Made by a program: the position numbers and the translations under genes. The notes under the pieces are model-generated. The model was not told where the DNA came from, did not search any database, and worked only from the letters and a program-made list of their open reading frames with translations. This document shows, piece by piece, positions 1,223 to 17,945 of a stretch of 64,000 nt of DNA; within the stretch, counting starts at the first letter, position 1; each line of letters starts with the position of its first letter. The stretch comes from Lentisphaeria bacterium (GTDB lineage Bacteria; Verrucomicrobiota; Lentisphaeria; Victivallales; Victivallaceae), in assembly GCA_017507125.1 (NCBI GenBank), contig JAFWBQ010000085.1, positions 1-64,000 on the forward strand, read 5' to 3'.

Positions 1223-1249
1223 TTGACAAAATCATATTTGTGGTATAAT
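1223..1249 (+). promoter_or_regulatory. Promoter of panD and the small pilin genes
   Basis: TTGACA (1223-1228) and TATAAT (1244-1249) match the sigma-70 consensus exactly, with a 15-bp spacer. TGTGG lies just upstream of the -10, giving an extended TGn element. The palindrome TACAC-C-GTGTA at 1251-1261 covers the expected transcription start and could be an operator. Confidence 0.7.
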
Positions 1250-1304: not shown

Positions 1305-1673
1305 ATGCAAAAAATAATGTTGAGCGGTAAAATCCATACTGCAACGATCACTCTTTGCGAGATCGACTACGAGGGGAGTCTTGCCATAGATCCGGATCTG
1401 CTTGAAGAAGCAAACATACTCCCCTACGAAAAAATTCTGGTTTCCAACCGGAACAATGGTTCAAGGCTTGAAACTTACGCCATTCCGGGGGAGCGGGGCA
1501 GTCGGGACTTCTGTCTCAATGGTCCCGCCGCCAGATTGGGTAAAGTGGGGGATGTCGTTACCATCATGGCATTTTCTCTGTGCAGTGAAGAAGAGGCCCG
1601 GGAGATAAGTCCCACGGTCATCGTTCTTGATGAAAAAAACGAGATCAAACTTAAAAAAGGCGGTAAAAACTGA
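1305..1673 (+). CDS. panD: Aspartate 1-decarboxylase
   Basis: PanD makes beta-alanine from L-aspartate for pantothenate and CoA synthesis. The 122-residue length is usual for the family. The proenzyme self-cleaves between Gly24 and Ser25, visible here as YEGS at residues 22-25, and Ser25 becomes the pyruvoyl group. Other family motifs are KIHTATIT near the start, NGSRLETY and GERGSRDFCLNG. panC lies at 16.1 kb on the other strand, so the pathway genes are split, and panB was not seen. The gene leads an unusual transcript, because its stop codon overlaps a pilin-like gene. Confidence 0.93.
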   Translation: MQKIMLSGKIHTATITLCEIDYEGSLAIDPDLLEEANILPYEKILVSNRNNGSRLETYAIPGERGSRDFCLNGPAARLGKVGDVVTIMAFSLCSEEEAREISPTVIVLDEKNEIKLKKGGKN

Positions 1674-1822
1674 AAAAGCAGGAGAAAGGACAAGTTGCAT
1701 TGGAGTTTGTACTGATGCTGATCGTCGCAGTGGTATTGGCTCTGGCGCTGTTGTCTTTTTCAGGCGTGATCTCTGACGAAGGAGAAAGAATGATCCGCCT
1801 GGTTCGTTTCACAGTACCGTAA
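1670..1822 (+). CDS. Small TadE/Flp-like pilin protein with a CTG start
   Basis: The only possible upstream start is CTG at 1670, because TAA at 1664-1666 closes the frame. CTG overlaps the panD stop (CTGA), and AAAAGGCGG 6-8 bases upstream is a fitting ribosome site, so translation is probably coupled to panD. The 50 residues begin with a charged leader KKQEKG, then QVALEF and a single hydrophobic stretch VLMLIVAVVLALALLSF. The G-Q-x-x-x-E-F pattern resembles TadE-type pseudopilins cleaved by a prepilin peptidase. The product is very short, with about 22 residues after the membrane helix. The next gene has the same layout. Function is inferred from motif only. Confidence 0.6.
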   Translation: MKKQEKGQVALEFVLMLIVAVVLALALLSFSGVISDEGERMIRLVRFTVP

Positions 1823-1871: not shown

Positions 1872-2102
1872 ATGAGAGTTTTACGCAGAAGACGTCAGAA
1901 AGGGCAGGCTTTCGTGGAATATGTGATCCTGGTGGCAGTCATCGCCCTGGCTGCACTTTTTGTCCTTGCCAGTTTCAGTGACCGCATCAAAGACATGATC
2001 ACCGGTATCACCGTCACTTTGGGCGGAGAAGCAGACGACAAAGCTGATGAAAAGTCCATTGACATCATCAAGGATCTGGACAAGGAAGGTCTGAAAGACT
2101 GA
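1872..2102 (+). CDS. Flp/TadE-like pilin protein
   Basis: This 76-residue protein has a basic leader (MRVLRRRRQKG), the pilin-like QAFVEYV motif, and one hydrophobic helix ending at VLASF. A charged tail follows, rich in Asp, Glu and Lys. ATG 1872 is preferred over the in-frame ATG 1860 because GGAGGA sits just before it. The leader and helix resemble the product of the gene immediately upstream, suggesting duplication. It is probably membrane-inserted and processed by a prepilin peptidase. No tad secretion genes lie in the window, so the partner machinery is elsewhere or absent. A strong terminator follows. Confidence 0.7.
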   Translation: MRVLRRRRQKGQAFVEYVILVAVIALAALFVLASFSDRIKDMITGITVTLGGEADDKADEKSIDIIKDLDKEGLKD

Positions 2103-2123
2103 TCCTTTCTCTCAGAGAAATCG

Positions 2124-2158
2124 CTCCGGCAGTATTCCAATGCTTCCGGAGTTTTTTT
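2124..2158 (+). terminator. Intrinsic terminator of the panD operon
   Basis: CTCCGG (2124-2129) pairs with CCGGAG (2146-2151), followed directly by seven T residues. It lies 21 bases after the pilin-like gene. Confidence 0.8.
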
Positions 2159-9553: not shown

Positions 9554-10393
9554 TTATGCCAATGGAACGCCGCAGGGACGGCGGAAGGGATAATTATTGA
9601 GTATTTCCATATCCTCCGGCGCAAGAGGTATTTCCAGTGCCGCCATATTTTCAGACAAATGCCTGAGATCCTTCATAGCCGTGATGACTGCAATATCCGG
9701 AAGGTTGAGAAGCCATGCCAAAGCCAGCTGCGGAAAAGAAATGCCATACTTGCGACAGAGAGTCCGGCACTCAGGTGTTTCTTCAAGATCCCGCACCGGA
9801 CGCCACGCCTGAAGTACAACTTTTTCCTCACGGCAGTACTTCTGAAGATCTTCCAGAGCCTCGCGCACAGCCAGGCTGCAATGAACCTGATTGATCACAA
9901 TGGGGACATTGGAGTATTGGAGTGCCTTCCTGAGAAGTGCAGCTGAAAAGTTGCTGACGCCTATGGAACGGCACTTCCCCTGCTCTACAAGAAGATTCAA
10001 AGCTGCAATAGTCTCTTCAAGAGGAATTTCAGGGTTGAAATGGTGATAAAGGAAACAATCAAGATAATCTGTTTTCAAACGTTTGAGAGAGTTTTCGCAG
10101 GCACGCAGAACTCTTTCTTTTGATGCATTGCTTTTCCATACCTTTGATGTGATGAAAAGCTGTTGCCGGTCATATCCTTCAATGGCTCTGCCGATCAGCT
10201 CCTCTGCATATCCTGAAGCATAGTATTCGGCAGTATCTATAAGAGTAAAACCACATTCGATCCCTTTTCTCAAAGCAGATATCTGACTTTTATCGTCGTT
10301 GGCGGCATCATGTTCCGTTCTGCCGCCAAAACACCATGTTCCCATTCCGAGAACAGGAATCCTGACATCTCCTTTTGCTGTCACAAAGCGCAT
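9554..10393 (-). CDS. Aldo/keto reductase
   Basis: The 279-residue NADP(H)-dependent oxidoreductase shows the catalytic Asp-Tyr-Lys-His set: FTLIDTAEYYASG, ITSKVW and LYHHFNPE. The cofactor-binding signature IGVSNFSAALL and the C-terminal ITAMKDLRHLSEN are also present. It reduces aldehydes or ketones of sugars or other carbonyls. It is first in the PHP-containing unit. Its start lies only 19 bp after the terminator of the ahcY operon, so it needs a promoter embedded in that region or some readthrough. The substrate is not predictable. Confidence 0.85.
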   Translation of the reverse strand: MRFVTAKGDVRIPVLGMGTWCFGGRTEHDAANDDKSQISALRKGIECGFTLIDTAEYYASGYAEELIGRAIEGYDRQQLFITSKVWKSNASKERVLRACENSLKRLKTDYLDCFLYHHFNPEIPLEETIAALNLLVEQGKCRSIGVSNFSAALLRKALQYSNVPIVINQVHCSLAVREALEDLQKYCREEKVVLQAWRPVRDLEETPECRTLCRKYGISFPQLALAWLLNLPDIAVITAMKDLRHLSENMAALEIPLAPEDMEILNNYPFRRPCGVPLA

Positions 10394-10411
10394 GATCTGA
10401 ATCCTTTACAG

Positions 10412-10443
10412 TAAAAAAGCACCTTTCCGGAAAAGAAAGGTGC
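10412..10443 (-). terminator. Intrinsic terminator of the metK-ahcY operon
   Basis: On the minus strand GCACCTTTC pairs with GAAAGGTGC around a 7-base loop, followed by six T residues. It separates the SAM-cycle genes from the aldo/keto reductase. Confidence 0.85.
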
Positions 10444-10467
10444 CTGAAGAGTTCACAGAAATTTCTT

Positions 10468-11871
10468 TCAGTAACGGTAGTGCTCGTTTTTGTAAGGACC
10501 ATCAACAGTCACGCCGATATAAGCGGCCTGTTCTTCAGTCAGAGTGGTGAGTTTGGCACCAAGTTTCTCAAGATGGAGTCTTGCCACCTCTTCATCAAGT
10601 TTCTTGTCAAGCAGATAGACACCGACTTCACGATCGGGATTCCGGGCGATATCGATCTGAGCCAGAGTCTGGTTGGTGAAGCTGTTTGACATGACAAAAG
10701 AGGGATGCCCTGTGGCACACCCCAGATTGACAAGACGTCCCTCTGCCAGCAGATAGATGGAGTGACCGTCATCAAAGGTGTAGGAACTGACAGGGCAGCT
10801 GCTGTCTTTGATAACACTCTTTTTCGCCTCAGGACATGCCTCAAGTTCAGCCACTTCTATTTCGTTGTCAAAGTGACCGATGTTGCAGACGATGGCCTGA
10901 TCTTTCATCTTCTTCATGTGTTCCAGACGGATGATACGGCAGTTGCCGGTGGTGGTCACATAGCAGTCGGCAATGGGAAGAGCATCTTCCACAGTGCAGA
11001 CGGTAAAACCTGCCATGCAGGCCTGAAGAGCGCAAATGGGGTCAACTTCGCTGACCAGCACCCGGGCGCGTTCATTACGCATAGCCTCGGCACAGCCTTT
11101 GCCAACGTCGCCGTAACCGCAGATCATAACGGTTTTACCGGAAAGCATCACATCAAGAGCGCGCTTGATACCGTCGGTCAAACTGTGGCGGCAGCCGTAG
11201 ATGTTGTCAAATTTGCTCTTGGTAACAGAGTCGTTCACATTTATGGCAGGGAAGATGAGTTCGCCCTTCTTTGCCATCTGTTCCAGACGGTGGACTCCTG
11301 TGGTGGTCTCTTCAGAAACGCCCCGGACTTTAGCGGCGACTTTGTGCCAGTGCTGAGGATCCTCAGCAAGAACCTTTTTCAACAAAGCGTTGATGATCTG
11401 AAGCTCCACAACATCGGTGGATTCATCAAGAATGGAAGGATCATTTTCAGCAGCCACTCCGCGATGGATCAGCAACGTGGCATCGCCGCCGTCATCGACG
11501 ATCTGGTCGGGACCGCTGCCGTCGGGCCAGGTCAGGGCGCGATAGGTGCACTCCCAATACTCTTCCAGAGTTTCACCTTTCCAGGCGTAAACAGAAATAC
11601 CCGCCTGAGCAATGGCGGCGGCGGCATGATCCTGTGTGGAAAAGATATTGCAGCTTGCCCAGCGGACATCAGCTCCAAGGGCTTTAAGGGTTTCGATCAG
11701 AACAGCGGTCTGAATGGTCATGTGCAGACTGCCCATGATTTTCACGCCCTTGAGGGGCTGCTGAGGACCGTATTTCTCACGGGTCGCCATGAGACCGGGC
11801 ATTTCTTTTTCTGCGATGTTGATTTCCTTGCGTCCGAAATCGGCAAGGTTGATATCTCTGACTTTATACAT
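10468..11871 (-). CDS. ahcY: Adenosylhomocysteinase
   Basis: AhcY hydrolyses S-adenosylhomocysteine to adenosine and homocysteine, relieving product inhibition of methyltransferases. The 467-residue form is the longer bacterial type. Visible motifs are [13 protein letters not shown], the Lys/Asp/Asn region [14 protein letters not shown], the NAD-binding loop [13 protein letters not shown], and the C-terminal YKNEHYRY with its conserved KxxxYRY ending. It follows the adenosine kinase gene by 5 bp, and metK leads the same operon. Together these make, reuse and salvage the adenosyl group. No luxS or mtnN-type alternative was seen. Confidence 0.95.
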
Positions 11872-11876
11872 AGTGT

Positions 11877-12863
11877 TTACAATCCTTTGATCTCTTCAAA
11901 AACTTTGTCCCATGCCTCTTTGCCCAGGACAGAACCGAAAACTTTGACAACTTCACTTGAAATCCGCGAACCGACTGCGCCGCACTTGCTCAATGAAGCT
12001 CCGGCAGCAAGTCCACGGATGAAACCGGCGGCATAAAGGTCCCCTGCTGCGGTCGTATCCACAGGCTTTTCCACCACGAAGGCAGGGATCACTGCTTTTT
12101 CGTTTCCCCGCACGGCAATGGAGCCACGGACTCCGGATTTTACCACAGCGACTTCACAAAGAGCCCCCAATTTACCGGCCATTTCATCAGGTGTCATCTC
12201 ACCCAGCAGAGCGGCGCCCTCTTCTTCATTGGCAAAAAGGATATCCACATATCGGGGCAGTACCTCATTGAGAAGTTTCTCTTTGAATATACCGACGACT
12301 TCAAAACTTGCCAAATCAAAACCGATGCGGCACCCTGCATCCTTAGCACACCTGACAAGGGTGTCAAAGACAGGAGAAAAGAGCATATACCCTTCGATAT
12401 AAACCAGATCGAAGGGAGAAAAATCAAGTTTTCTGACCTCATCCGCGTTAAGAAGAAGCGAAGCCCCCAGAGCAGAGCGCATGGTTCTCTCGGCATCCGG
12501 CGTCACCAGGGAAAGACAACACCCGGTGGGCGCATCACCGGTAACCACAAAACAAGCATCATTTCCGCCGTTGCTTTTGAATGAGGAACGGTAAAATGCG
12601 CCCTGTTCATCGTTGCCTGTTTTGCCGAACATAGCACACTCGACTCCCATTTTCGCCAAAGCAAAAATCGTATTGCCGGCAGAACCTCCGGGAGCCTTTT
12701 CCGGAGTTTTGCCGGAGCGTGCCACAAGAGAGGCGATCAGCTCCGGCTCCACCATTTCCATTCCGCCCTTGGCGCCGGAAACATGTTCCTTGAGAAAAGC
12801 GTCATCCACGTTGAGAAGCAGATCCACAAGAGGAGAACCGACGCCGAGTACTTTCCACGCCAT
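11877..12863 (-). CDS. PfkB-family kinase, probable adenosine kinase
   Basis: The 328-residue ribokinase-family protein starts with [17 protein letters not shown], like adenosine kinases. It has the substrate-binding [15 protein letters not shown] and the catalytic/anion-hole motif [13 protein letters not shown]. The position between metK and ahcY (5-bp gaps both sides) strongly suggests the substrate is adenosine released by AhcY, giving AMP. A general sugar-kinase role cannot be excluded from sequence alone. It is cytoplasmic. Confidence 0.85.
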
Positions 12864-16080: not shown

Positions 16081-16929
16081 TTATTTCACCTGAACAAGTT
16101 CATTGTCTATAAGACGGGTCGTCCCGAAAAAGACTGCCGCAGCCAGCAGGATCTCGCGACTGTCTGCAGTGGGAGCTTTCATGGTCGCCCGGTCAAGACC
16201 TTCAACGTAGTCCACTCTGCCGCCGGCAGCAGTAATTGAGTCGATCGCCTTGCGGCAGATCTCATCAAGGGCGGCAAATCCCTTTTCTTCAAGCTCTTTT
16301 CTTCCGGCAAGAAGTGCCTGATGGATGGAAAGTGCCCTTTGACGTTCCTCAGCAGAAAGATAACGGTTCCGGGAACTCAGAGCAAGGCCATCCTCATCTC
16401 TGACCAGAGGACAGGGCACGATCTCGACCTGAAAGTCAAGATCCCTGACCATACGTTCAATGACAAAGCACTGCTGGGCATCTTTCAGACCGAAACAGGC
16501 AAAATCAGGCTGAGCCAGATGGAAGAGTTTCCCCACAACGGTGGTAACGCCCCGGTAGAACGCCGGACGGCTGGCACCGCAGAGGGGGTTGGCAAGGTCA
16601 AGCTCTTCGATCCATGTTGATGAATCTGAAGCGTACATCTCATTGGCATCAGGGGCAAAGAGGACATCCACATTATGCTCCTCACACATCTTTTTATCCC
16701 GCTCAAAATCTCTGGGATAACGGTCAAGATCCTCAGTGGGCCCGAACTGGGTGGGATTGACAAACAAGGTAACGATCACCACGTCAGCTCTGGATCTGGC
16801 GGTATCAACAAGAGACATGTGACCGGCATGGAGATATCCCATTGTCGGCACAAGTCCGATGACCTTGCCGCTGCGTTTGGTTTCAGCGGCAAAGCGTGCA
16901 AGCTCTGCTTTGGTTCGGAAAAGGATCAT
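16081..16929 (-). CDS. panC: Pantothenate synthetase
   Basis: PanC joins pantoate and beta-alanine with ATP. The 282-residue enzyme shows VPTMGYLHAGHMSLVD (HIGH-like), FVNPTQFGPTEDLDRYPRD, the ATP/pantoate loop FGLKDAQQ and LALSSRNRYLS. It overlaps ilvE by 4 bp (ATGA) and abuts hisD, so the three are translated as a unit. panD, which supplies beta-alanine, is 15 kb away. Confidence 0.97.
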   Translation of the reverse strand: MILFRTKAELARFAAETKRSGKVIGLVPTMGYLHAGHMSLVDTARSRADVVIVTLFVNPTQFGPTEDLDRYPRDFERDKKMCEEHNVDVLFAPDANEMYASDSSTWIEELDLANPLCGASRPAFYRGVTTVVGKLFHLAQPDFACFGLKDAQQCFVIERMVRDLDFQVEIVPCPLVRDEDGLALSSRNRYLSAEERQRALSIHQALLAGRKELEEKGFAALDEICRKAIDSITAAGGRVDYVEGLDRATMKAPTADSREILLAAAVFFGTTRLIDNELVQVK

Positions 16930-17945
16930 TTTTCGGGAACTTCCACCATCCAGTTGTGGGTATCTTCCACCTCTCCGTACTGAATTCCGGTCAGGCGGTC
17001 ATACAGTTTCTTGAGCTGAGGACCGATCTCAGTAAGTCCGAAGTCAAAGAATTTACCGTTATCCAGCAGACGTCCGACAGGAGTCAGCACCACAGCGGTT
17101 CCGCAAGCGGCGATTTCGGCAAATTCATACACTTCTTCCAATTTGATCTTGCGGCGTTCAGCAGGCATTCCCAGATCCTGAGCCACCTGCATCAGGGATT
17201 TGTTGGTCACTGAAGGCAGAATGGAGTCAGAAAGACTGGTCACATACTTTCCGTCTTTGGTCACAGCCAGGAAGTTACTGGTATTGAATTCATCCACATA
17301 GGTGTGGGTGGCAGGATCAAGGAAGAGTGAAATGGGGCAATGGTACTCATGCTTTGCAGTGTGATAGGGAAGCAGACTTGCAGCATAGTTTCCGGCAGCT
17401 TTGATGGTACCGGTACCATGGGGTGCTGCACGGTCATATTTCCGCTCGACCATGGCATCCACAGGCTTGATACCGCCTTTATAGTAGGCACCCACGGGCA
17501 TCACCATGATGACGAATTCATACTCAAAACTGGCGTTGACGCCGATCTGAGGAGAAGTACCGAACATCACAGGCCGGATGTAGAGAGAACCGCCGGTACC
17601 GTAGGGGGGAACGTAATCAGCATTGTCAGCCACAACACGTTTCACAGCTTCCACGAAGTTTTCAACGGGAAACTCAGGCATCATCAGACGTTTGGCGGAG
17701 TCGCACATACGTTTACCGTTTTCTTCAGGACGGAAAACACGGATCTTGCCGTCTTTGCAGCGGAAAGCCTTGAGACCTTCAAAGATAGCCTGTCCGTAAT
17801 GCAGAACGTTGGCGGCAACAGACATAGTCACATTGTAATCATTGCAGAGTTTACCCTCATCCCATGCGCCGTTGGCGTAGTGGAAACGGATATTGCTGCG
17901 CGTGGGCATAAATTCAAAACCAAGTTTTTCCCATTCAATGTTCAT
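16926..17945 (-). CDS. ilvE: Branched-chain amino acid aminotransferase
   Basis: This 339-residue fold-type IV PLP enzyme transfers amino groups between glutamate and the keto acids of Leu, Ile and Val. The likely PLP lysine is in GTGTIKAAGNYAAS. Other motifs are LHYGQAIFEGLKAFR, VDEFNTSNFLAV and ACGTAVVLTPVG. AAGGA stands 9 bases before the start and a good promoter lies about 47 bp upstream. It leads the ilvE-panC-hisD operon. The length is that of the eukaryote-like longer BCAT group. Confidence 0.94.
   Translation of the reverse strand: MNIEWEKLGFEFMPTRSNIRFHYANGAWDEGKLCNDYNVTMSVAANVLHYGQAIFEGLKAFRCKDGKIRVFRPEENGKRMCDSAKRLMMPEFPVENFVEAVKRVVADNADYVPPYGTGGSLYIRPVMFGTSPQIGVNASFEYEFVIMVMPVGAYYKGGIKPVDAMVERKYDRAAPHGTGTIKAAGNYAASLLPYHTAKHEYHCPISLFLDPATHTYVDEFNTSNFLAVTKDGKYVTSLSDSILPSVTNKSLMQVAQDLGMPAERRKIKLEEVYEFAEIAACGTAVVLTPVGRLLDNGKFFDFGLTEIGPQLKKLYDRLTGIQYGEVEDTHNWMVEVPEK

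Follow-up and report, generated by a model that had tools for sequence, protein, structure and literature searches.

A small Flp-type prepilin gene behind panD in the Victivallales, with a probable CTG start at the panD stop codon

Results

A Small Pilin Frame Overlapping the End of panD

The window, by which we mean the whole stretch of 64,000 nucleotides of Lentisphaeria DNA that was analysed, contains directly behind panD a short frame that is almost certainly a real gene. Taking all lines of evidence together, and with modest confidence, we favour the explanation that it encodes a small Flp-type minor pilin, that it has a CTG start coupled to panD, and that its product is an adapter or primer of a Tad pilus. 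The features of the region are listed in Table 1. The translated product has 50 residues and ends at the TAA at 1820-1822, and AlphaFold models it as a single helix spanning residues 3 to 48 (mean pLDDT 84, pTM 0.51). The CTG at 1670-1672 overlaps the panD stop codon TGA at 1671-1673, and a TAA at 1664-1666 shuts the frame on the 5' side; these coordinates agree with a preliminary description of this DNA, according to which the frame is closed upstream and the CTG lies in a CTGA shared with the panD stop. Because its start would be a rare CTG inside the panD stop, this 50-codon gene is probably overlooked by standard annotation.

Table 1. Coordinates of the features around the small pilin gene in the window
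Feature	Position	Strand	Basis or remark
Promoter-like site, TTGACA, 15-nt spacer, TGGTATAAT	1223..1249	+	Read from the sequence
panD, aspartate 1-decarboxylase, 122 aa	1305..1673	+	PF02261, 148.8 bits; TIGR00223, 136.2 bits, over the cut-off
Shine-Dalgarno-like site AAGGCGGT	1657..1664	+	Inside panD, ends 5 nt before the CTG
Small Flp-type prepilin gene	1670..1822	+	Putative CTG start, 50 codons
Gly -1 of the small pilin	1688..1690	+	
Predicted mature part of the small pilin	1691..1819	+	43 residues
Flp-like pilin (second pilin)	1872..2102	+	PF04964, E 7e-5, below the cut-off; ATG 1860 also in frame
Likely terminator, a hairpin with a run of seven T behind it	2123..2152	+	Fold computation

The promoter-like site, which is also present upstream of panD in loci L003 and L006, was not among the output of our pattern scan, because the scan requires a spacer of 16-18 nt; the hairpin was not among that output either. 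The presence of a promoter-like site before panD, and of a hairpin with a T-run after the second pilin gene, makes it likely that panD and both pilin genes are on one transcript. For the second pilin, ATG 1872, which stands after GGAGGAG, appears to be a better start than ATG 1860: in relative L005, only the former has a counterpart. At E<=0.01, 27 of 33 relatives match PF04964 with the second pilin, and a search of the PDB sequences gave weak matches to Geobacter pilin chains (best E 0.0027).

Selection on the Frame and Features of the Family

In each of the six closest species the small pilin frame is open throughout, with neither frameshifts nor stops seen, and variable sites are distributed 27/12/41 over the three codon positions. 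The dN/dS of the 50 codons, one of the checks proposed in the preliminary description, is 0.047-0.473 (that is, 0.05-0.47) in the 14 of 15 pairs with a finite dS, with many pairs near synonymous saturation. The median pN/pS is 0.28 when the sequences are read in the small pilin frame; in the alternative frames it is 0.89 and 2.58. The closest named records are Lentisphaeria MAGs, several of ruminant origin, and the relatives include Victivallis vadensis.

We aligned 37 distinct relatives, 36 of which have no internal gap. Numbered from the cleavage site, Q1 and E5 are invariant, and G-1, L10, G31 and P43 are conserved in at least 90%. The invariance of G/A-1 and E5 is partly built in, because the search pattern demanded these residues; Q1, L10, G31 and P43 were not demanded. 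The alignment left out nine minus-strand loci (L004, L005, L007, L011, L012, L015, L018, L023 and L030), eight of whose species are represented by other loci (the exception is L030). The motif of the K-G-Q-xxx-E type that had been described for the window copy is retained across the relatives. The sequence features of class III prepilins are present: a short leader, Gly or Ala at -1, Glu at +5, and a hydrophobic helix right after the cleavage site.

Profile databases barely see this family. At E<=0.01, Pfam matches Class_IIIsignal in five of the 37 members and TadE in one, and none of the 37 matches PF04964; the window copy has no PF04964 match even at E<=1. Over its N-terminal helix, the window copy scores 16.1 bits against TadE (PF07811; E 0.012), below the cut-off of 22.9. 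Its one NCBIfam match is far under the cut-off (E 0.21), and PDB sequences matched the small pilin at chance level only.

Length and C-terminus were counted in 44 distinct panD-linked loci, which were collected on both strands with the pattern [GA]Q, E[FY] and 42-48 residues. The distance from the Gly/Ala at -1 to the stop is exactly 44 residues in 41 of them; the exceptions (43 in L019 and L031, 46 in L079) are the same with and without the length filter, the L098 frame and the first L064 frame having been excluded as false from the unfiltered listing, which, like the alignment, did not cover the nine minus-strand loci. The last residue is Pro in 41 loci, Leu in two and Asp in one. Such an exact length and a Pro-stop end, together with the Flp pilin gene that comes next, would fit a regulatory role as a leader peptide, in which a nascent chain of constant length controls translation of the following Flp gene. 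We consider this very unlikely, given that the prepilin cleavage site and the helix are kept and that the final residue is not Pro in three loci.

The Putative Start Codon at the panD Stop

In the window copy (L002), no ATG, GTG, TTG or ATN codon occurs from position 1667 to the cleavage-site Gly, and the next NTG after CTG 1670 is TTG 1700, beyond that Gly. Conservation of the CTG in relatives had been proposed as a check, and the CTGA at the overlap was found to be retained in all six closest species; in four of them (the window, L035, L036 and L039), the CTG is the sole NTG or ATN codon from which a product would keep the cleavage site. L037 has an extra TTG at -7 and L038 an extra GTG at -91. 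The preliminary description had allowed for two starts, the CTG or a late TTG, and the comparison favours the former: at the position of TTG 1700, four of five relatives have CTG and one has CTT, and a start there would lose the cleavage site.

Retention of the CTG alone proves little, because the last panD codon tends to end in C anyway (AAC in 27 versus AAT in 10 of these panD genes). An argument from the retained C was therefore ruled out.

Other relatives have different start codons at the same overlap point, namely TTG in L009 and L013, GTG in L044 and ATG in L018, and in these four loci the 60 nt before the panD stop contain no other NTG. At other loci, the start is inside panD (L010-L012, L014 and L053) or beyond its stop; a CTG at -1 is likewise present in V. 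vadensis DSM 14823 (L051), L066 and L070, but there with another start further on, which in L051 is a TTG at +23. In a panD tree, in which many forks are weak, five CTG rows cluster, L007 lies beside them without firm placement, and the TTG rows are elsewhere. The start site thus shifts around the panD stop, and CTG is one of the forms that it takes.

The Shine-Dalgarno-like site has a computed energy of -8.7 kcal/mol in the window, L035, L036 and L039, of -7.8 in L038 and of -3.4 in L037; that is, it is present in five of the six closest species and weak in L037. An energy of -8 or lower is found at 4.5% of 3000 random positions of the window.

From these data we infer, with good confidence, that CTG 1670 is the initiation codon. 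A real pilin gene that starts elsewhere could be a fusion with PanD, made by a -1 frameshift near AAAAAC-TGA, or could start at TTG 1700 or, in some species, at other codons. That CTG is a poor start, that four of the six species have an A-rich run before the stop, and that L037 has the TTG at -7 and L038 the distant GTG at -91 all speak for such a possibility. We nevertheless judge it improbable: L037 and L038 have no such run, which led us to reject the frameshift fusion, TTG 1700 is not conserved, and relatives have TTG, GTG or ATG at the very same overlap point. It is even less likely that the copies of the CTG clade are decaying relics, untranslated since an ATG was lost. The weakness of CTG and the lack of a match in 18 of the 34 genomes in the genus would fit decay, but it is precisely the six CTG species that show the low dN/dS and the intact frame, and five of them have the Shine-Dalgarno-like site.

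Distribution and Linkage to panD

A profile built from the 37 relatives matches 101 of the 137 genomes of the order at E<=0.01 (99 at E<=0.001), which, together with the conserved frame and purifying selection, bears out the proposal that the pilin-like gene is real. In the genus of the window, 16 of 34 genomes match at E<=0.01. Class-wide, 101 of 197 genomes match at E<=0.001, and two of these (G138 and G142) are outside the order.

panD was found in 122 of the 137 genomes of the order. Among the 101 pilin-positive genomes, G070 and G105 have weak, unplaced matches and three placed ones are without panD. In 72 of the 96 genomes with both genes placed, the small pilin gene is directly behind panD on the same strand, at 0-340 nt, with a few overlapping; of the panD-pilin-pilin order that was to be checked, the panD-pilin part is conserved in most of them. 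The 24 exceptions comprise G103, G120 and 22 members of family f4. Partial second panD matches occur in G100 (contig C258, near the first copy) and in G056 (contig C3, with internal stops).

Association with the Tad Machinery

CpaF, the Tad-pilus ATPase, was detected in 108 of the 137 genomes of the order at E<=1e-60. The small pilin and CpaF are both present in 98 genomes and both absent from 26, with three genomes having the pilin only and ten CpaF only (Fisher p=1e-16, a value that ignores shared ancestry). Leaving out the weak G070 and G105 matches, the numbers of genomes with both, pilin only, CpaF only and neither are 96/3/12/26 (p=1e-15, again ignoring shared ancestry). Of the 18 genomes of the genus that lack the small pilin, 15 are also without a CpaF match. 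The pilus seems to have been lost as a unit in this genus, with panD left behind in most cases.

The distance between CpaF and panD was determined for the 150 listed CpaF places, which lie in 104 of the 108 genomes; the genomes are fragmented. Among the places listed, CpaF is divergent to panD at 1.03-1.07 kb in at least five of the 97 genomes with both, four in the genus of the window (G003, G017, G029 and G031) and one in another genus (G120, in which the small pilin is on another contig). Four more genomes have CpaF and panD on the same contig at least 6 kb apart, and the rest of the 97 have no listed CpaF place on the panD contig. In L154, L155 and L156, the gap between CpaF and panD is filled by cpaB (RcpC), and in L154 two T2SSF genes come next. 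In L155 and L156, panD, the small pilin and the Flp gene stand head to head with cpaB-cpaF, with about 1 kb from panD to cpaF.

Other Tad genes flank the small pilin elsewhere. In L151, a locus of family f4, it is followed by Flp-like, TadE-like (just under the cut-off) and TadG-like (over the cut-off) genes, and in L152 it lies ahead of Flp-like and TadE-like genes. The small pilin thus occurs with Tad genes and beside them, the adjacency being seen in some genomes only, and it is very probably a member of the Tad system, as judged from gene content and order. The two pilins had been described as pseudopilins; they resemble Flp-type prepilins of a Tad system more than pseudopilins in general. 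Counted against our explanation are the location of CpaF away from panD in most genomes (among the CpaF places listed), the ten genomes with CpaF and without the small pilin, the few members known to Pfam, the rarity of CTG as a start, and the alternative TTG at -7 with a weak Shine-Dalgarno-like site in L037.

The genome of the window itself has a Tad locus (L117) with matches to T2SSE, T2SSF, secretin, RcpC, A24 peptidase, TadE and Tad; a cpaB-cpaF pair is found apart from it, in L118. L117 also contains a short pilin-like frame on the minus strand that ends in SMPYP and has no Pfam match (16768-16932), beside a Flp-like frame on the same strand (16334-16600), so that the layout of small pilin plus Flp is repeated in a second Tad locus. 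Within the same locus, the minus-strand frame 10279-12744 reads, by eye, like a serine/threonine kinase with Sel1-like repeats.

Discussion

We propose that panD, the small pilin gene and the following Flp-like pilin gene are probably co-transcribed. Ribosomes would end panD near the Shine-Dalgarno-like site 5 nt before CTG 1670 and might restart on the overlapping CTG. The small prepilin would then enter the membrane, where the Tad prepilin peptidase is predicted to cut after Gly 7, and the 43-residue helix would become part of the Tad pilus. Its most likely place there is between the Flp shaft and tip pilins of the TadE/G type, as an adapter or a primer.

By analogy with known minor pilins, an adapter is the role that we favour, if with reservations. 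The small pilin might instead be a Tad pilin of another kind, such as an additional shaft pilin or a pseudopilin resembling TadE, in keeping with its weak Pfam matches to TadE and Class_IIIsignal and its single, Flp-like helix. This is the less likely of the two roles, albeit with an appreciable chance: the fixed length and the C-terminal Pro set the small pilin apart from the neighbouring Flp, and separate TadE-like genes lie alongside in L151 and L152.

We would guess that a weak CTG start suits a subunit needed in few copies. A wider reading, which we regard as doubtful, is that the start of an adapter family is tied to the panD stop, that the last coding base of panD sets the start codon, so that all four NTG codons appear at one orthologous overlap, and that in one clade the weak CTG sets a low ratio of adapter to shaft. 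A CTG start common to six species is unusual. In PMC5622118, CTG is described as a very rare start and changes to CUG as extremely rare, with switches to CUG counted for 2 of 61,358 ancestral AUG, 1 of 5,080 GUG and 1 of 2,468 UUG starts. CTG, TTG, GTG and ATG at one site form a natural series in which to test the relaxation of start codons under coupled reinitiation.

The analysis would add a Tad-linked small pilin family and ties panD to pilus genes. As to why panD is the host gene, use of the panD promoter is the simplest answer. Among the papers covered by our literature search, none combines panD, pilin, operon and aspartate decarboxylase, and none joins Tad pili with Lentisphaer-.

The arrangement resembles NTGA-coupled gene pairs, which likewise start on the upstream stop and have a Shine-Dalgarno-like site within the upstream gene; the small pilin differs in that its putative start is a CTG, common to six species. 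With the Flp/Fap pilins (PF04964) it shares the class III type of cleavage motif and a single N-terminal helix, but it is the neighbouring second pilin that matches PF04964, weakly, and not the small pilin itself. It resembles the TadE-like minor pilins (PF07811) weakly over the N-terminal helix, but stays below the cut-off and has no domain past the helix. The closest experimentally tested parallel to the proposed role is provided by KilK and KilO of the Kil Tad system of Myxococcus xanthus, described in PMC12075869 as short, helical minor pilins of the Flp type without which the tip does not function and the major pilin is not primed. As presented there, these are all-helical Flp proteins with a leader and a cleavage motif, distinct from the major pilin, and KilO has a predicted length of 59 aa. 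The likeness is one of description, and the small pilin stands apart from both by the position of its gene behind panD, its fixed mature length and its terminal Pro.
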